A DNA stretch of 64,000 nt from positions 22,942,887 through 23,006,886 of the forward strand of contig OX359250.1 in NCBI GenBank assembly GCA_947179485.1. The letters run 5' to 3'. Position 1 is the first letter of the stretch, and the number at the start of each line of letters is the position of its first letter. This document shows positions 159 to 58,284 of the stretch, piece by piece. A program made the translations under genes and the position numbers. The notes beneath the pieces are model-generated. The model was not told the origin of the DNA, searched no databases, and was given only the letters and a program-made list of their open reading frames with translations. Origin of the DNA: Allacma fusca (lineage: Eukaryota; Arthropoda; Collembola; Symphypleona; Sminthuridae).

Positions 159-1593
159 GCTATAAAGGTACAAAGGCAAAATTATTGACATTTTTCAATA
201 ACACTAAAAATTTATTCTTGTTAACTTAACAATGTTAAATATTCGTCATGAGCTATTTTGCTGTAAGAAAGTCTCCCAAGGAGCATTTAAAGCACGAACC
301 TTTCCTGATGGGTATAGTAAGACACATGCGGTAATACGTCCAATGCATACATAGCTGAGCAAACATGGAATAATTTTTCCTATTTGGACTTTGGAAGGTA
401 CAGTAAAAATATCTGAACCTAAGGGATCAGTCAAATTTTACTGAATTCTATAATTACTCAAATTTACTGTACATAGAAAGTGTCTACAATTTCGTCACAA
501 TACATTACAGGTATCTACATATAGAGAATCAAAACAGAATCGGCCGTAATCCCAGGAAAAATTGCTACATGAAATTCGTATCTTAGCTTTCGTCGATTGT
601 CCCCAAAGTTTGGAATTTTATGCCTTGTTACTGTCAACAGAGATAATTCTTACGGGGTCAAAAGCCCAAACAGGAAAAATTACTCTATATTTGCGCAGCA
701 CTGCATGGATACCATTTGTTTAACCAATTATTTCCTTATTATTATTCTATGTATTGAGATCACCAAGAAACCATTGTGCACAAAGTCTTGAAAAAGTGTG
801 CTGAATAGTATTTGGTAAAATGAAAACACCCCAACGTACTTATGTATGCATTGATTGCTTTAATAATTTGTGAGCTCCAGCTCATGTAATACATTCGGGT
901 ACAATTAAAAATGTCATATGTCCCGGAGTTTTTAATAATTGAGACATTTCGAAAAATTTTTCTTTAATAATTATTACATAAAACCCCCATGTACTCAATG
1001 TTTCAAGTTAACACCAGTAGCTGGAGCAAGAAAATCCTCATTAAACCGAATCCATGTGAACGACCAATTCACGTTTTCTAATCACGAGGATCTTAGATTT
1101 TGTGGGATTGCAAACCTTGACATTCTAACATGTCTATTTCACTTTTTGAATAAACCAGAAATATTTTTTGCCAGAAATAGTAATTGTTTGATTCTTCTGC
1201 ATTACATTGGCCGTAATATATCACACTCGCAAATAGACAGTGTACAAACAGCACCATGGTCTGAATCGTTAGTCATATTCCGGACTCCAAATGCGCTTAA
1301 GTACTATTGTATTATCAACATTCTATTAATTTTTGTCTACGCCTTGTAGACAGCAAAAAGCAAAAACAACAATGGTTTCTCAGTTTTTGACTTATGAAGT
1401 ATCCCCGACAAAATGAGTGAATTTATTTGACATCTTGGGGCGTTAAAACACCGTCGATTTTTATTTATTACAACAAATTCGCATAGCTTCCATTCTACTA
1501 TTTCCACAAATTATCCATAATATTGAACAAATAGAAATATCTAGAAGAATGGCTTGAAATCCATCATATCCGAGTTTTGAGAATTAGTAATCA
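159..1593. other. AT-rich flank, no supported gene
   Basis: Open frames here (a 136-codon run at 939-1349 that begins at a TTG, and a 62-codon minus-strand run at 246-434) show no recognisable domain, no splice signals and no start context. Both are in the size range expected by chance. No tandem repeat stands out. Confidence 0.6.
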
Positions 1594-1727
1594 TATTTTG
1601 TTGTTTAAAAGATATAATAAAAATAATGAAACTTGAACAAATAAAATAATTATTGTCTTAGCGTATTCAAGGCTGAATTTGCATTTTCTTCGAACTTCCC
1701 TGCTCAACTTTTACAATATATTACAAT
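1594..1727. repeat. left 134-bp target-site duplication of the LINE
   Basis: Compared base by base, this stretch is identical to 7172-7305. The two copies abut the two ends of the retrotransposon exactly: the left copy ends in TTACAAT just before the element's ACAGAGAC, and the right copy starts in TATTTTG just after the ATCT tail. Outside these limits the flanks differ (a at 1593 against c at 7171; a at 1728 against g at 7306). That is the pattern of a target-site duplication, although 134 bp is far longer than usual for a LINE. Confidence 0.88.
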
Positions 1728-1909
1728 ACAGAGACAAACAGGAGATACCACTAGGACGATAACCGACACTTGAGAACACAACTGACCGACAACCAACAAC
1801 CAAAGACCAAGATAGGCCCTTCACCAGGCAGTACTAGTCAAAGTACTCTTTAAAAAGCTAATCCGAAGAATATCGCAAACTAAAAACAATCAGAGCAATT
1901 CCCATAAAA

Positions 1910-1952
1910 GTGTACGGGTCGCGCTGTAACCAGGAATTTGGACCCCGTACAC
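1910..1952 (+). promoter_or_regulatory. leader hairpin 1 of the LINE
   Basis: GTGTACGGG at 1910-1918 pairs perfectly with CCCGTACAC at 1944-1952, enclosing a 25-nt loop. The 10-mer GTGTACGGGT that starts this hairpin recurs in the element's 3' UTR at 6662-6671, also inside a hairpin loop. Role unknown: an RNA element for translation, packaging or priming are all possible. Confidence 0.55.
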
Positions 1953-1960
1953 CAACCCTT

Positions 1961-2122
1961 GTAAAAGCTCGGGATTGTGAAAAACGTGCCTCTGGTAACT
2001 GAAGCTAGAGGTACCCGAGAATCTCAACGGGAGTAGCAACATCCCAAACTAATAAAAGCCCGGGATTGTGTAGAACGCGCCCCTTGCAACTAGGACGCTA
2101 AGGGGTACCCGTGGCTGAATTA
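1961..2122 (+). repeat. two degenerate tandem leader units with covarying stems
   Basis: Unit A (about 1961-2034) and unit B (about 2051-2125) align at an offset of 91 bp; shared blocks include AAAGC-CGGGATTGTG, GAA-ACG-GCC and GGTACCCG. Each can fold the same way. The outer stem is CGGG/CCCG (A: 1970-1973 with 2014-2017, extended to CTCGGG/CCCGAG; B: 2061-2064 with 2108-2111). The inner stem differs in sequence but stays paired: CCTCT 1989-1993 with AGAGG 2007-2011 in A, and CCCCTT 2080-2085 with AAGGGG 2100-2105 in B. Compensatory change between the copies argues for a selected RNA fold. No known ribozyme core (hammerhead CUGAUGA/GAAA) was seen. Confidence 0.6.
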
Positions 2123-2160
2123 GTAAGAGTACTCTCCCAAATCCCAATCGCAAAACTCTA

Positions 2161-2250
2161 ATGCAGGAACACCAAAGCCCAACGATACACCAAGAAGAAG
2201 AACCACAATTCCGAAGGACATCACACCAACTTATACACAAGGCAAACTAG
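2161..2250 (+). CDS. 29-codon upstream ORF in the LINE leader
   Basis: The first ATG I find in the leader is at 2161. It opens 29 codons (MQEHQSPTIHQEEE...) ending in TAG at 2248-2250, only 8 nt before the ORF1 ATG at 2259. Such a short spacing would normally make reinitiation poor, so the small ORF could damp ORF1 translation, be bypassed by leaky scanning, or be skipped if the structured leader recruits ribosomes internally. The peptide is hydrophilic, with no recognisable domain. It could be chance sequence. Confidence 0.35.
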   Translation: MQEHQSPTIHQEEEPQFRRTSHQLIHKAN

Positions 2251-2258
2251 ACCAACAC

Positions 2259-3281
2259 ATGAATCCTGCCAACCTTGATTCCGCACAGTTCTTCACCCCA
2301 AAGCAGGAACGTGAAGTAATCTTCCGTCGATCCATCTTGATTAAAACATCGCCATCAAAATCCAATCCATCAACTAGCCAAACACATTCTCCCCTTCTAA
2401 ACGAGAAGAGGGTAGAGACAGGAAAGCTACATTCAGAAGACGAGACTGAGCAGAAAAAAAAAATAGAAAACAAAAAACGTAAACTAGAACACGAAGACAC
2501 TATACCTCGAATTATACGAAAGAAGGACGAAAAACAAGAGCAAGAAACCAGACCAGATACAAAGATGGGGCTAGATGATGAAACCAAGATGTTCTTCAAA
2601 AGCCTACTACAAGAACACCAAACGAAATACGACGAAGGACAGGGACAAATCAACGCATCCCTTGAAATCGTGACGCAAAAGCTAAACAGGCTGGAGGGAC
2701 AAGTCATTCCGGAAGTGAAAGATCTCCAAAAGAAAACAGCAACACTGGAGAAGAAGGTAACAGTACTGGAGAGAGAAAATGAAATCCTTCACAAAATGAT
2801 CAGACGCAACAACCTTCTATTCTCTGGCATACCAGAAGACCTAAATTGTGAGACATCTGCAGATCTGCCAAAGAAAATCAATGATATTCTCAAGAACTAT
2901 GCAGTGACTCCAGCTCCAGCAAATATTGATGTGGCGTTCCGTGTTGGAAAATATCAGATAGGCAAGTCCAGACCAATTAAAGTTCGTTTCATCTACCAAT
3001 CCCAAGCGGATGAGATACTGTCTAAAAGCCATGAGAAAGACGGACCACTGCGAAGAGCAAGAATATACGTGAACGAAGACGTCTCGGCAATCGAAGGCAC
3101 CAACCGGTACTTGATTAGAAAGGAAACAACTGCAGCAAAACGAGCAGGAGCATTGGTAGAAAACTGGAAAACAAGTACAGTGACAATCCAGGGCATCAAG
3201 CTGGAAGCCAAAGGAGGAATCCTTTACCGAGATGGGAAGCCGGATGAAACACAACCATCGACAGGAGATCGAAACTTCTGA
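2259..3281 (+). CDS. LINE ORF1p: coiled coil, RRM and C-terminal domain RNA-binding protein
   Basis: 340 residues from the ATG at 2259 to TGA at 3279-3281. Residues 1-100 are charged and probably disordered, with a basic patch (KKKIENKKRKLE, about 67-78) that could be a nuclear signal. Residues about 108-180 are heptad-rich (LEIVTQKLNRLEGQV, then LEKKVTVLEREN) and should form a coiled coil. Residues 181-255 start with IRRNNLLFSGIPE and include DVAFRVGK and RPIKVRF, the signature of the L1 ORF1p (Transposase_22) RRM. About 260-325 (RARIYVNEDV, KRAGALVENW, TIQGIKL) matches the C-terminal domain of the same family. Such proteins trimerise, bind the element's own RNA and act as nucleic-acid chaperones during retrotransposition. 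The coding sequence is intact. It lies upstream of ORF2 in the same frame, with only the UGA between them. Confidence 0.93.
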   Translation: MNPANLDSAQFFTPKQEREVIFRRSILIKTSPSKSNPSTSQTHSPLLNEKRVETGKLHSEDETEQKKKIENKKRKLEHEDTIPRIIRKKDEKQEQETRPDTKMGLDDETKMFFKSLLQEHQTKYDEGQGQINASLEIVTQKLNRLEGQVIPEVKDLQKKTATLEKKVTVLERENEILHKMIRRNNLLFSGIPEDLNCETSADLPKKINDILKNYAVTPAPANIDVAFRVGKYQIGKSRPIKVRFIYQSQADEILSKSHEKDGPLRRARIYVNEDVSAIEGTNRYLIRKETTAAKRAGALVENWKTSTVTIQGIKLEAKGGILYRDGKPDETQPSTGDRNF

Positions 3282-3300
3282 AAAGCCGGCCGCCCGCAAC
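3279..3300 (+). promoter_or_regulatory. ORF1/ORF2 junction: single in-frame UGA
   Basis: ORF1 ends TTC-TGA-AAA and the same frame continues open through KAGRPQPAKIATS into the endonuclease. The bases after the stop (GCCGGCCGCCCGC, 3284-3296) are a G+C-only patch in an otherwise A-rich transcript and could form local structure. No ATGA or TAATG overlap for termination-reinitiation is present here. Readthrough is an inference. Confidence 0.6.
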
Positions 3301-6300
3301 CCGCTAAAATTGCAACAAGTATTTTATTTTGGAACGTGAACGGAATTAAAAGAAAACTATCACTAATAACTAATTTTTTAAACAATATCAAACCTAACAT
3401 ATTCTGCCTAGCTGAAACTTGGACGAAGGAAAATGTAATCGCTGAAAAGCTCCTACCCAACTACAAGTGCACCACAATTAGTGCAACAACAAATGCAAAA
3501 GGGGGTAGACCAAGCGGAGGCACGCTAGTCGGCGTTAAGACAGAAATATTAAAACCTACGAAAATAACTTTTAAAAATGAAAACTATTTAGAATTAACAA
3601 TTGACGAAGGAAACAAACTCCGTGTATACTTCACTTACTTTCCCCCGCCCGAAGAATTTGATGAGTTAGTAGAAGAATTCTTAAGCAACATAACAACCTC
3701 AAACGTCATTCTAATGGGAGACTTCAACGCAAGAATAAGCGCAACAACTCCAGATAACACATCAACGAATAATATGAAAATAACAGACCATCGAAATTCA
3801 GAAGATAAAATAACAAACCGAAGAGGAAAGAAAATGAAAAGGCAACTTGAAAACCAGGGACTTACAATATTGAATGGTAGGACAAAAGGGGACGAAACAG
3901 GAAACTACACCTACGTATCTCAGAGTGGGAACTCTATGATTGATCTGTGTTTAGCTGATAACGAAGCGATGAATGGCATACTCGACTTAAAGGTGATAGA
4001 AGCACATGAATCGGATCACATGCCTATTCTTCTACTCAGACAAGAAGAGCAAACCTTTGGATCAAATGAGTCCTCTATAAATAGAATAAATTGGAACAAG
4101 GACCTCAAAAAGGCATTCACTCGCCAAATCTATATTGAACGTGAAGAAATCAGAACCCGTGTAAATGGAGATATCCAACAATTATCGAAGGAGATGTACA
4201 CATATGCAAACCAAACTGGAATGAAAACAACCAGAAGGATAGGAGAAATTCGACATAATGCACCCAAATGGTTCAACCAAGGATGTCGAAAGCTAAAGAA
4301 AAAATGCAACGAAAGACTAAAAGTATTACGGCAAAACCCAGGAAACCAACAACTGACAACAGAATACATAAACGCAAGAAACCAATACAAGAAACACACC
4401 TCTAACTCCAAGCTAGAATACTACACGTCTTTAAGAAATACCATCATATCCTCAAAGAACTCGACAGACTTCTGGAAAAGTCTGAACATTTTCAGATGCA
4501 ATAAAAGAAGATGCGAAACTACAAATTTAATTTCAAATGAAGCATGGGAAAATCACTACAGAAACCTATTCGATGGAGCGGACAGTACGCCTTACCGACA
4601 GAAACAGACGGCACACCAACCATTTCATCTTCATGAACTGAATCAGGCACTAAGGAAATTATCAAACAATAAGAGCTCAGGTACAGACGGCATTCCTAAC
4701 GAAATCTGGAAATACTTACCACTGGAATTCCGGCCATGTCTATTAGAATGCCTGAATAAATGCCTTGCAAATCCCATCCCTGATACGTGGGGGGAAATAA
4801 TCATAGCTCCAATATATAAGAAGGGCGACAAAAACTCACCTTGTAACTACAGACCAATTTCTTTAGTCAACACAATAGTAAAGCTATTTACGATGCTCCT
4901 GTCAATGCGACTGCACACATGGATCGAAAAACATAAGGTGCTATCAGAATCCCAAGCAGCATACAGAAAGCATAGAAGCTGTTCAGACCACTTGTTTGTA
5001 TTAAACACTCTAATACAGAATGCGCTGGCAAACCAGAAGAAGTTGTACTGCTTATTCGTAGATCTGTCAAAGGCATTTGATTCCATTAAGAGGAAACGTC
5101 TATGGGATAGGTTAGAAACGCTGGGAGTACCTGCCTACATTCTTCAAAAGATACAAGAAATATACAGTCAAGCAAAGGCAAAAATCCAAACATCAGGGGG
5201 ATATACAAATTTCATGGACGTACTTAATGGAGTACTGCAGGGTGAAACACTGAGTCCGACGTTATTCTCTATATATATTGATGAAATCACAGAATTGCTT
5301 GTCAAATCCAAAGTACGAGGGGCGAAACTGCTTACCACTGAAGTTACCATCCTACTTTACGCGGACGACATCGTATTAACAGCAGACTCTCCCGCAGACC
5401 TCCAAACCCAGATCGGAATTCTCAGCAGATTCTTCAGCAGAAACGATCTCAACATAAACCTGGAAAAAACCAAGGTGGTAATTTTTGGAAAAGGACCAGT
5501 ACCAACAAAGAAAAACAAAGTTATGCCAATGGAATTCTACTACAATGGAAATGTCATAGAAATAGCGAGTAGCTACAAATATTTAGGAGTAGAGTTTCAT
5601 CGAAACGGAAAATTCCACTACCACCTCAAACAAACCCTTTTGAAGACAAACGCTGCAGTCGAGTTACTTTTAAACACTACTAGGTCAACAAAACTGAACG
5701 ATATAGAAATCATTATGAGACTCTTCAACTCTCTAGTAACAACAATCCCACTCTACGGATTCCCAATTTGGGGAATGGAGTTTTTAGATGAAATGGAAAA
5801 GATACAGACTAAATTTTTACGAAGAATTACTGGAGCCTGCAATCTCACTCCTGGATACGTCCTGCGTCTGGAGACTGGAAGTAAATCAATGCGAGCATTA
5901 ATCGCGAAAAGCATTATAACAACAATGTACAACTCTATCTTCTCAGAAAATGCAACTGCTATGGCTTCAAAGTGCTACAGGTTGCTGGAAGCAATCGAGG
6001 GAGACACGAATAACAGATCTCAGTGGAGGACATTATTTAAATCAATTAAACTTGAAGAGGATTTCAACAAATTCACAAGGGAATACTTGAAAAAAAACTG
6101 CGACAGTTTATGGAGAAAGATAGATCTCCACTCTACAAACACAGATGTAGAAGATATGTTGAAAACTGAGAGCAGCCGGTACATCGGATTAAAAACCCAC
6201 GTTTGGAGGGAAGACTTTTACGGAAAGGGACACAGCTGGGCGCTTACGAAATTCATACAAAATCTCAGACTAGACAAACCAAGAATAAATGTTCAATGCA

Positions 6301-6578
6301 GAAACATTAATCTAAAAGCTATGACCTACCGTTGGAAACCAAAAAGCGGACCGATCGACGCATTATGTGCGTGCCTTAAAAATGCAGAAGACCGCTACCA
6401 TATAATGTGCGAATGTGAAGTTTACGAAGACATCAGAGCAAAGCACATCCCTGAAGCCGATAAGCTAAGACAACACGACTTTATCCAATATTTCCTACAA
6501 ACAGAAGATGACCAGAGCCGAACAAAACGAGCCTATCTATTCTGGAAGGACGCAATAAAAATAAGAAATGGTACTTGA
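3282..6578 (+). CDS. LINE ORF2p: APE endonuclease and reverse transcriptase
   Basis: The frame is open from the codon after the ORF1 UGA to TGA at 6576-6578. Numbering from the GTG at 3336, which lies inside the conserved endonuclease start ILFWNVNGI (3321-3347): ETW 27-29, GDFNAR 128-133 and SDHMPI mark an apurinic-type endonuclease that nicks target DNA. The reverse transcriptase spans about 435-700, with SSGTDGIPNEIW, the YRPISL block, FVDLSKAFD, the GVLQGETLSP block and the catalytic YADD at 675-678. A C-terminal Cys/His motif of form CxC-x8-H-x4-C lies at 1011-1027. No RNase H is evident. The protein carries out target-primed reverse transcription. The first ATG in frame is at 3714, in the middle of the endonuclease, so normal AUG initiation cannot make the whole domain. 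UGA readthrough, reinitiation or a non-AUG start must be used. No internal stop or frameshift was found. Confidence 0.95.
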   Translation, partial: KAGRPQPAKIATSILFWNVNGIKRKLSLITNFLNNIKPNIFCLAETWTKENVIAEKLLPNYKCTTISATTNAKGGRPSGGTLVGVKTEILKPTKITFKNENYLELTIDEGNKLRVYFTYFPPPEEFDELVEEFLSNITTSNVILMGDFNARISATTPDNTSTNNMKITDHRNSEDKITNRRGKKMKRQLENQGLTILNGRTKGDETGNYTYVSQSGNSMIDLCLADNEAMNGILDLKVIEAHESDHMPILLLRQEEQTFGSNESSINRINWNKDLKKAFTRQIYIEREEIRTRVNGDIQQLSKEMYTYANQTGMKTTRRIGEIRHNAPKWFNQGCRKLKKKCNERLKVLRQNPGNQQLTTEYINARNQYKKHTSNSKLEYYTSLRNTIISSKNSTDFWKSLNIFRCNKRRCETTNLISNEAWENHYRNLFDGADSTPYRQKQTAHQPFHLHELNQALRKLSNNKSSGTDGIPNEIWKYLPLEFRPCLLECLNKCLANPIPDTWGEIIIAPIYKKGDKNSPCNYRPISLVNTIVKLFTMLLSMRLHTWIEKHKVLSESQAAYRKHRSCSDHLFVLNTLIQNALANQKKLYCLFVDLSKAFDSIKRKRLWDRLETLGVPAYILQKIQEIYSQAKAKIQTSGGYTNFMDVLNGVLQGETLSPTLFSIYIDEITELLVKSKVRGAKLLTTEVTILLYADDIVLTADSPADLQTQIGILSRFFSRNDLNINLEKTKVVIFGKGPVPTKKNKVMPMEFYYNGNVIEIASSYKYLGVEFHRNGKFHYHLKQTLLKTNAAVELLLNTTRSTKLNDIEIIMRLFNSLVTTIPLYGFPIWGMEFLDEMEKIQTKFLRRITGACNLTPGYVLRLETGSKSMRALIAKSIITTMYNSIFSENATAMASKCYRLLEAIEGDTNNRSQWRTLFKSIKLEEDFNKFTREYLKKNCDSLWRKIDLHSTNTDVEDMLKTESSRYIGLKTHVWREDFYGKGHSWALTKFIQNLRLDKPRINVQCRNINLKAMTYRWKPKSGPIDALCACLKNAEDRYHIMCECEVYEDIRAKHIPEADKLRQHDFIQYFLQTEDDQSRTKRAYLFWKDAIKIRNGT

Positions 6579-7171
6579 AGCTGGGAAGGTATTAGAAACA
6601 CTTTCGAAGTACAGTTGCACCCACCCATGAGATTGGTACAAAACATGTAAGCCGAAAGGAAGTGTACGGGTAGCAGCCCATCAATAGCCTTCGACAAATG
6701 GTACCAACCTCATGGGCGGGTACCAGACAAATAAGCAGGGATGTCGTAAGGCTGGGGCTGTTGGCGGGCTGAAACACGTATAACAGTAACTCACGACCTG
6801 GAGGCACTAATATATTTGTAAACCAATTTAATGTACTTGTATATTCTCTCGCAGCTAATACATCTGATATACCCGTAATCTATAAATAATTATCAACAAT
6901 GTCTTATCTGGTACTTGATGAATAAGTAGTACAATAATGAAGTGTAATGGAGAAAGACGTGTAGGTTTTTGACGGCCCTTGTTATAGCAGGGAACCTTTT
7001 TCACCTACACCACAACACTTAGTAATGTTTTTCAATTTATTCTATTACCTTAAACAATTCACAATTCATTTACTCTAATTAAAACTATTCGATTTTTTGT
7101 AATTAATGCGATAATAAGCGGGTTGTAAGGGCTAAGGCCAAATCGACCTTTAATAAATCTATCTATCTATC
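6579..7171 (+). other. 3' UTR and ATCT tail of the LINE
   Basis: Non-coding tail after ORF2. It contains a long hairpin (6620-6720), a second hairpin with GTGTAGGT 6959-6966 pairing with ACCTACAC 7003-7010, and a terminal run of four ATCT units (7157-7172, the last base shared with the duplication). In LINEs the 3' end is what the reverse transcriptase recognises to start copying, so these folds are candidates for that signal. Confidence 0.75.
6620..6720 (+). promoter_or_regulatory. 20-bp hairpin in the LINE 3' UTR
   Basis: Bases 6620-6639 pair with 6701-6720 at 18 of 20 positions (mismatches at 6632/6708 and 6623/6717), enclosing about 61 nt. A smaller stem inside the loop joins CGAAAGG (6653-6659) with CCTTCG (6689-6694) with one bulge. 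The loop carries the GTGTACGGGT 10-mer (6662-6671) also found in the leader. A role as the reverse-transcriptase recognition element is plausible but not shown. Confidence 0.65.
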
Positions 7172-7305
7172 TATTTTGTTGTTTAAAAGATATAATAAAA
7201 ATAATGAAACTTGAACAAATAAAATAATTATTGTCTTAGCGTATTCAAGGCTGAATTTGCATTTTCTTCGAACTTCCCTGCTCAACTTTTACAATATATT
7301 ACAAT
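7172..7305. repeat. right 134-bp target-site duplication of the LINE
   Basis: Second copy of the duplication, identical to 1594-1727 at every base I compared. It follows the ATCT tail directly. The absence of any difference points to recent insertion. Confidence 0.88.
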
Positions 7306-56429: not shown

Positions 56430-56980
56430 CCTTCTGCTAAGGAACCAAATGGCTTATCTCCACACTGCAGACCTTCCGCTAAGAAGCTAAACTAGTCAAA
56501 CCATCCAACTGCTAAGAATCTAAATCGTATATCCACAAAACTGCTAAGAATCTAAATCGTATATCCACAAAACTGCTAAGAAGCAAAATTCCATCTCCGC
56601 TAAGAAGCAAAAAAAAGCATCTCCAGAACTGCTCCGACTCACTAATGAGCATCTGCAGGATTCCTTAGAATCAAAGTTGCATAGCTGGATAACTGTTAAG
56701 AAGCAGAATAGAATAGCTGGATAACTCTTAAGAAGCAGAATAGAATAGCTGGGTAACTGCTAAGAAGCAAAGTTGCATTTCTAGAAAGCTGTTAAGATGT
56801 AATGTTGAATTTCTGGAAAGCTGTTAAGGAGCAAAATTGACTCGCTGGATAGAAGTTAAGAAGCAAAGTTCCATTTACGGAAAGCTGCTAAGAAGCAAAG
56901 TCAAATACCTGGATAACTGTTAAGAAGCAAAGTTAAATAGCTAGGATAACTGTTCAGAAGCCAAGTTAAATTTCCGAAAA
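56430..56980. repeat. degenerate 32-bp-period minisatellite
   Basis: About 17 units with the core CTGTTAAGAAGCAAAGTT. Anchor cores (CTGCTAAG, CCGCTAAG, CTGTTAAG and variants) fall at 56434, 56477, 56509, 56541, 56573, 56597, 56629, 56661, 56693, 56725, 56757, 56789, 56821, 56853, 56885, 56917 and 56950. The step is 32 bp almost throughout, with one 24-bp unit and a longer first step. Unit sequences differ widely while the step is kept. It is not coding (32 is not a multiple of three). Confidence 0.85.
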
Positions 56981-58284
56981 AAAAAAAAAATTTGGGAAGT
57001 AAAAATAAATATCTGAAATTTATTAGTAGGAAGTCAAGTGGGAGTTCCGGAGATGGGTTCGGAAAGAAGTTGGAGGAAGCAGAAGGGGTCCTAAACTTCT
57101 GGGAAAAATCTAATAATTTAGTAATCAAAAAAAGGAAATGGAATTGTGAGGGATTTAGTAAGTTCCAGACTCATGATGTAAATTAGAGTAGGGTGATTTT
57201 GACTCCTTAGCGGAGGATGCATGGTTGGTTGGTGTGGATGTGTGTATATAGTTTAACGTATAGTAAAAAGTAAAGGAAGGAAATCGATTGATGTTGAGGG
57301 TTGAGACGGTTGGATGTTTGAAGGTATGTGTGAGTTTTGAGTGTATGTATGTTGTAGAGGACTGGGAGTTGAGTTGAGGTTGAGATAGGAGTGAGAGAGA
57401 TGCTGAGATGTGTGTGTGTTGTGTGTGTGTGTGTGTGTGTGTGTGTGGAAAGGTAAAAAGTGGTGCAGAGGTCCGATGGCTGGGACATCTAATGGGAGCG
57501 GAGTGGTGTTGACGGGATTAAAGTTAGAGTACTCTATCAGCTGTGTGGTGACTGACTATGGTAATGGACTTGGTTCTTACGTTGGGAAAGGAGCGAATAT
57601 TTAAGGATGTCTTGGGTGGATTGAGGTCAATCCAATTAATGAATTTTTCCTTTTCGTTGACCAAAGATGAAAGAAATCTTTTGGGAAGACTGATTTTTCT
57701 TTCATTGTGGGTTAATTAAGTGCGTAAGATAATATAGTAGAGTTGTTTGGGTGGGGAGACCGTAGTTCTATGTGTTGATCAACGACGGAGGATTGAGAAA
57801 GGACGAGGAGAAAAAAAAAACAAGTTTTTTTTCCTGCCAATAAGAAACTAGAGTAAGAATTTTTGTGACGAATAATTTGTCGAGATTGTGGTTCGTTTTG
57901 GGAAGATGAAGGAGAGTTTGAGAGAGGGTCGGTGTTTTGCTAATGGTTGTGTGCTGTTGTAGAATTTTGAGACATTAGAGTGGCCGAGCAAAAACAAAAA
58001 AAAAGAGGATTAGAGTGGCCGAGAGTATAAAGAGAGGAGAAGAAGAGCCAGAGACTTACATATCTGTTGATTCAGAAACCCCGAGGATTGATCGGAAGAT
58101 CGGAAGGACTTGTTCTGTAATAACTACTTCCGGACTGCTTGGATAATTATTGTATATGTAAAAATAAATTGGAGTTGGGTGGTTGATTGTTGTGAGGTTG
58201 AAGTTGTATTTTGTTTTTGTTCTTTTTTTTCTGGTGTGGGGGGGACTATTTACAGGAACTCATCATCCCTTGTGAGTGATCATA
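56981..58284 (+). promoter_or_regulatory. C-depleted leader/promoter region of the TSC22D gene
   Basis: The plus strand is strikingly poor in C and rich in G from about 57190 to 58270. In 57241-57420 I count 66 G and 5 C. It includes a (GT)n array (57409-57446). A 15-bp block ATTAGAGTGGCCGAG is repeated at 57974-57988 and 58009-58023. TATAAA follows at 58026-58031 and could place a start near 58055. TTTACAG at 58249-58255 behind a T-rich tract could be a 5' UTR splice acceptor. These promoter and splice calls are inferences. Confidence 0.35.
57409..57446. repeat. (GT)n microsatellite
   Basis: GT dinucleotide array of about 38 bp with one T interruption near 57420. It lies in the C-depleted region ahead of the TSC22D gene. 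Confidence 0.92.

Follow-up and report, generated by a model that had tools for sequence, protein, structure and literature searches.

A LINE copy between two long direct repeats

The window, i.e. the whole 64,000-nucleotide stretch of Allacma fusca DNA analysed here, contains a 5'-truncated LINE that carries two open reading frames and is flanked by long direct repeats (Table 1). It probably sits on X2 of Allacma fusca, whose published assembly is given as 392.8 Mb, with chromosomes of 81.9, 75.61, 66.08, 58.81, 55.59 (X1) and 48.07 Mb (X2), the scaffold N50 being 66,084,411 bp (PMC10427803); the assembly searched in this work comprises 392.74 Mb in 91 contigs.

Table 1. Features of the LINE insertion, in window coordinates
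Feature	Position	Strand	Basis
Left copy of the 134-bp target-site duplication (TSD)	1594–1727	+	Identical to 7172–7305; two genome matches only
Additional trinucleotide ACA between the left TSD copy and the element	1728–1730	+	Full-length copies have GGG before the base matching 1731
5'-truncated LINE, positions 526–5966 of the full-length form	1731–7171	+	Comparison with family copies
ORF1, 340 aa	2259–3281	+	No Pfam match above cut-off
ORF2, 1080 aa (listed with a GTG start)	3336–6578	+	Open reading frame and Pfam
APE-type endonuclease domain, ORF2 aa 6–231	3351–4028	+	Exo_endo_phos 1.7e-8 (aa 6–228), Exo_endo_phos_2 4.9e-11 (aa 96–231)
Reverse transcriptase domain, ORF2 aa 497–754	4824–5597	+	RVT_1 3.3e-36; L1 and R2 among the solved-structure matches
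3' tail of (TCTA)n, following AATAAA	7158–7171	+	Like the tail in other copies
Right copy of the 134-bp TSD	7172–7305	+	Identical to 1594–1727; two genome matches only

The initial annotation had described two identical 134-bp repeats flanking an APE-type LINE, and this description proved accurate: all 134 bases match (134/134), the match ends exactly at the limits of the repeats on both sides, and a search of the 392.7-Mb assembly with the 134-mer returned exactly two matches (2 candidates, 2 scored), namely the two repeats themselves. An exact 134-bp repeat is far beyond chance. The same search disposes of the idea that the 134-mer is part of the element's own terminus in all copies, since it is absent from the other copies. 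The repeats had also been said to abut the ends of the element exactly, which holds on the right side only, and there within an ambiguity of at most 3 bases: the (TATC)n tail runs into a repeat that itself begins with TAT, which blurs the boundary and gives the window copy a TSD of 131–134 bp. On the left side, the three extra bases intervene.

Elsewhere in the window, positions 56489–56992 are occupied by a repeat array with a 32-bp spacing, in which 11 copies of a 128-nt reference were registered, the others being 61–79% identical to the reference.

A young family of APE-type LINEs

ORF2 encodes an APE-like endonuclease followed by a reverse transcriptase (Exo_endo_phos_2, Exo_endo_phos and RVT_1 all pass the Pfam cut-offs), which identifies the element as an APE-type LINE, and L1 and R2 proteins are among the best solved-structure matches to the reverse transcriptase part of ORF2. 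The copies share a common 3' end, are devoid of LTRs and are bordered by TSDs whose sequence differs at each site. No Pfam match to RNase H was found in the ORFs of the element.

The family was searched for with the last 593 bp of the element as a query, and the best 40 of 404 candidates were scored: 14 of these 40 places are identical across all 593 bp and 26 are at least 99% identical (rounded values), so close a resemblance that the family is, by this measure, young. The young set was defined as the 22 places (L003–L024) that are at least 99% identical at their 3' end, L005 being the window copy. L025–L028 were excluded, as they form a segmental array of one insertion (C8:15795493-15806608): a 5'-truncated copy with a 15-bp TSD, read on L025, recurs there in four units about 3.5 kb apart. 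Predicted 5' regions were retrieved for 20 of the 22 young places, together with the intervening stretch for 8 of those; the remaining two are the window copy and L012, whose 5' end fell within its first locus. The full-length form measures 5,966 bp and extends 525 bp further in the 5' direction than the window copy, a truncation that had escaped the initial annotation; the 5' starts of the young copies range from position 1 to position 5157 of 5966.

Outside the young set and the segmental array, 14 further places had been scored, 7 of which were looked at (L032 not on its own; its 3' flank is nearly the same as that of L031). The copy at C9:25996493 (L084/L092) has a 16-bp TSD, L091 shows a 14-bp match lying 116 bp away from the junction, L030 is without a TSD call, and in the flanks of the older copies L029, L031 and L090 no TSD was recognised. 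L069 (C1:23768530), which was not counted, matches the full-length form perfectly at its 5' end (100% over 2123 bp) and has no 3' end at the expected distance. The 5' UTR varies within the family: upstream of about position 461, that of an older subfamily (L083, L084, L086) differs from that of the young copies, and positions of about 37–452 of the young 5' UTR are 92–99% identical to six other places (L077–L082). The 5' end of the young family seems to be a new acquisition.

Short and long target-site duplications

Clear short TSDs of 11–18 bp border 13 of the 22 young copies; 3 copies have weaker short ones, 5 have long ones and 1 (L017) is without a TSD call. The long TSDs measure 134 bp (window), 415 bp (L011), 529 bp (L021), 1115 bp (L018) and 2741 bp (L007), and the two copies of each are identical: together they display 0 mismatches in 4,934 bp, which places the upper 95% bound at about 6e-4 per base. 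In L007, the five outermost bases of the comparison belong to the tail and do not enter this count; the outer ends of the other long TSDs are ambiguous by at most 3 bases because of the tail. The clear short TSDs measure 11 bp (L003), 12 bp (L015), 14 bp (L010, L014, L020), 15 bp (L013, L022), 16 bp (L008, L023), 17 bp (L004, L016) and 18 bp (L006, L009). As for the weaker calls, L012 shows an exact match of 9 bp, which is at chance level, L019 a 12-bp match beyond a 187-bp filler, and L024 a 14-bp match inside a tandem array, where a 204-bp match at 91% exists as well and the intervening element sequence is rearranged. The 16 short values have a mean of 14.5 bp (SD 2.6).

These calls were compared with a chance control, in which 462 mismatched pairs of a 5' and a 3' flank gave anchored matches of at most 9 bp; TSDs of at least 11 bp are therefore real, and that of L012 is not proven. 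The anchored flank scan alone missed L007, L019 and L024, whose calls come from other flank comparisons. L017 shows no duplication in 8.5 kb of its 3' flank, and its 5' flank is a dispersed repeat. At this locus (L017/L045, C8:18847040), the LINE starts at position 105 and adjoins the dispersed repeat, and the 3' flank is unrelated; elsewhere, the dispersed repeat has a 165-bp stretch that is repeated about 11 kb away (LTR-like).

The five long duplications exceed the thresholds that two cell-culture studies apply to long TSDs (>20 bp, PMC4245944; >100 bp, PMC5223499), and they occur beside short TSDs of the same element. No TSD of a length between 18 and 134 bp was found among the 22 young copies. 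This gap has a probability of 0.56 under an exponential distribution with the mean of the five long values; it is thus compatible with one broad distribution of long values and, with only five of these, proves little.

The flanks of other copies, which the initial annotation had proposed to inspect, thus contain the ordinary short duplications that it had named as speaking against its reading. The 134-bp duplication is exceptional, as had been asserted, when set against the 14–15 bp typical of the family, and 134 bp was rejected as a fixed stagger of the element on account of the 11–18-bp TSDs of other young copies. The suggestion of a different second-strand cutting geometry stands for a minority of insertions and fails for the element as such, given the 13 of 22 young copies with clear short TSDs and the 3 with weaker ones.

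The recurrence of the arrangement also bears on explanations in which the long repeats do not result from the insertion itself. At any single locus, the LINE could have inserted into a pre-existing tandem duplication, as the initial annotation had envisaged. However, four unrelated young copies besides the window copy show the same arrangement, with duplications of 415, 529, 1115 and 2741 bp. Five young copies would each have had to hit precisely the join of a tandem duplication that occurs nowhere else, without adding a short TSD of their own. A crossover between two nearby LINE insertions on homologous chromosomes would likewise yield one element with a long exact flanking duplication, made of the sequence between the two sites; it needs, however, two young insertions in the same orientation within 0.13–2.7 kb of each other at five places, in a 393-Mb genome where 26 places at least 99% identical were found among the best 40 of 404. 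Because the arrangement recurs at five places, insertion into pre-existing duplications is very unlikely, and we give the crossover scarcely any credence. Finally, the flank repeats, which were judged from the assembly, could in principle have been created by a wrong join. Such an artefact would have to be reconciled with 80-fold HiFi reads and a QV of 58.7, as stated in the assembly description (PMC10427803), and with five independent loci whose breakpoints lie exactly at the element ends, and is highly improbable.

Junctions of copies with long and short duplications

The 3' junction tails are of the same kind in copies with long and with short TSDs, and the first-strand sites of the window copy, L011, L018 and L021 are, by eye, T/A-rich like those of the short class. 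The long class comprises one full-length copy (L021), one near-full-length copy (L007) and three truncated copies (window, L011, L018). Little was found that sets the two classes apart; they differ at the second-strand step.

In nine young copies, the element sequence begins no more than 37 bp from where the full-length form starts. Six of these nine have 6–48 extra bases between TSD and element (among the copies with long TSDs, L007 has a 48-bp filler), L010 and L021 have none, and L019 has 187. The latter copy, a full-length one (L019/L047, C1, just left of 46246161), has a chimeric 5' extra sequence, in which 136 bp match a copy of a dispersed repeat on C5 and 52 bp a place on C10, both without a mismatch. 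From its composition, this chimera looks like a product of template jumping at the end of cDNA synthesis.

A distant second-strand end as the probable origin of the long duplications

The 134-bp repeat is almost certainly a TSD made by the insertion of the LINE. We infer that integration proceeded by target-primed reverse transcription (TPRT): the bottom strand would have been nicked just left of 1594 and the cDNA primed there; cDNA synthesis would then have halted short of the 5' end, and the cDNA would have been joined, via the three extra bases, to a top-strand end located 134 bp downstream of the first nick, versus the usual 11–18 bp. Fill-in would finally have duplicated the 134 bp. For the family, two outcomes can be envisaged, the second end lying about 14–15 bp away in most cases and 0.13–2.7 kb away in a minority (5 of 22 young copies).

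On balance, we favour completion of the 5' end from a distant second-strand end, which would most likely be a distant, unrelated nick or break. The regulated nearby second nick would most likely have failed or come too late, and the insertion would have been completed from such an end, as proposed for human L1. The presence of the same arrangement in four unrelated young copies beside the window copy points toward this reading. A distant nick leaves the same trace as a local extension of the nicked end or as replication-linked models, and these two possibilities were weighed as follows.

The second nick could be made at its usual place, about 15 bp away, and its 3' end extended by strand-displacement synthesis across 0.1–3 kb of paired target before joining, in which case the duplicated length would reflect synthesis and not cut position. 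Extension of this kind accounts for variable lengths with ordinary first nicks, for the observation of duplications only and for the identity of the copies (0 mismatches in the 4,934 bp compared), and one broad length distribution would fit the five long values. It is nonetheless without a published precedent in the literature searched and leaves no trace that sets it apart from a distant nick, and we consider it fairly unlikely.

Joining could also be linked to replication or to the sister chromatid: the first nick would lie at a fork or on one of the chromatids, and the cDNA would be attached to an end situated elsewhere on the sister or on a restarted fork. Long exact duplications of any length would then arise without the melting of kilobases of duplex, and ends exposed in replication or repair are named as possible primers in PMC5223499. 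A symmetric sister model, however, predicts as many long deletions as long duplications. The ratio of long duplications to recognised long deletions is 5:0, or 5:1 if L017 is one (one-sided p=0.03 or 0.11), which speaks weakly against this model, as deletions are hard to see where no empty site is at hand and show there only as a missing TSD. We regard joining of this type as unlikely, and completion from a distant nick or break as the better account of the long class.

Frequency of long duplications and comparison with other LINEs

The window copy was chosen for its long TSD and was therefore left out of the frequency estimate: TSDs of more than 100 bp are found in 4 of the 21 other young copies (19%, 95% CI 5–42%). 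For human L1, PMC5223499 gives a proportion of TSDs >100 bp that never exceeds 10% in HeLa cells, 3/9 in complemented XPD+ cells, and 4/7, 21/23 and 22/28 in XPA-, XPC- and XPD-deficient cells, respectively (range 57–91%), with a median TSD of 1495 bp in cells deficient in nucleotide-excision repair (NER). The proportion observed here is not significantly above a 10% rate (p=0.15 for 4/21; p=0.06 for 5/22 with the window copy) and is far below that of the pooled NER-deficient cells (47/58, p=8e-7). It is above that of human L1 in DT40 cells (0 long TSDs in 37 inserts, PMC4245944; p=0.014) and of full-length human L1 copies (at most 2/66 outside 10–20 bp, as cited in PMC4245944; p=0.03), and does not differ significantly from that of ZfL2-2 in DT40 cells (1/25, PMC2666801; p=0.16). 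Since hosts and methods differ, these tests are indicative only.

The closest parallel is the long-TSD class of human L1 in cultured cells, likewise an APE-type element, whose TSDs are partly short and partly between hundreds of bp and several kb in length (PMC5223499; Gilbert 2002/2005 and Symer 2002, as cited there and in PMC4245944); it differs by the cellular setting and by a poly(A) tail, whereas natural genomic copies of an arthropod LINE with a (TCTA)n tail are considered here. According to PMC4245944, TSDs >20 bp are numerous in one HeLa data set, whereas the human L1 inserts that its authors obtained in DT40 cells include none. With ZfL2-2 in wild-type chicken DT40 cells, target alterations were mostly short (24/25), as in our family, and a single 1228-bp TSD was obtained among 25 insertions; that study is, however, a cell assay of a transplanted element rather than a survey of natural copies, and a TSD of any length was present in 20/25 (PMC2666801). 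R1 of arthropods resembles the short class in its 14-bp TSD, which is of the ancestral type, and also has extra bases at its 5' junctions; by contrast, it inserts mainly into 28S rRNA genes, and no long TSDs appear in the portion of PMC2718515 that describes it.

In the literature searched, the long-TSD class thus appears in three cell-culture papers (PMC2666801, PMC4245944, PMC5223499). Among the literature matches listed (titles and abstract beginnings, mostly of open-access papers), kilobase TSDs were not described as a recurrent class in natural copies of an arthropod LINE. What is new here is the occurrence of the long-TSD outcome at about 1 in 5 among such copies, albeit in a small sample.

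R9 of the rotifer Adineta vaga, described by Gladyshev and Arkhipova in 2009, reportedly has a TSD of 126 bp, a length similar to that of the window copy. R9 is an rDNA-specific element of the R2 family, whereas the Allacma LINE has an APE-type endonuclease and its sites and TSD lengths vary between copies. An R9-like, site-specific insertion with a fixed long TSD was accordingly discarded: the sites differ and the TSDs range from 11 to 2741 bp.

Host repair genes and other LINE families

The authors of PMC5223499 speculate that the second nick owes its nearby position in part to NER factors. A profile search of the genome found XPA_C, Rad4 (XPC), ERCC4 (two loci) and Rad10 (ERCC1) domains above the Pfam cut-offs; the stops flagged in the ERCC1 matches lie inside an apparent intron between two good exons. 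As XPA, XPC, XPF-type and ERCC1 domains appear to be encoded, the known cause of frequent long TSDs, i.e. NER gene loss, is not supported at the gene level for the four domains searched.

A second LINE family with a similar 3' end (F2) provides a first comparison within the same genome. A 5'-truncated F2 copy at C8:53613159 has a 13-bp TSD, and a TSD was assigned in 0 of 4 further F2 copies whose flanks were retrieved. A second F2 copy was at first sight TSD-less; this reading was rejected, as the junction compared is not that of its 5' end and the copy belongs to a segmental duplication.

Papers such as PMC6895275 and PMC2881922 describe the later half of LINE integration as unclear or poorly understood. 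Outside cell assays, a genomic record of the second-strand step is offered by a natural family such as this one, which combines short with very long TSDs, comprises many near-identical copies and can be read in a chromosome-level HiFi assembly. On a bolder reading, which we consider less likely than not, about every fifth insertion of a young LINE in the germline of Allacma fusca would be completed from a second-strand end 0.1–3 kb away even though XPA, XPC, XPF-type and ERCC1 domains are encoded. LINE insertion would then be a regular source of kilobase direct duplications, through something intrinsic to how the element handles the second strand or to germline repair in springtails, and not through a defect. 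Long TSDs are a route to kilobase duplications beside a mobile element, one that is overlooked by searches for short TSDs only.

Comparing LINE families within one genome could separate causes that lie in the element from those that lie in the host. With RVT_1, the best 150 of 4154 candidates were scored, and many of them have long open frames, of up to about 1300 aa. These frames suggest that several retrotransposon families have been active recently, which is of use for comparing TSD classes within this genome.
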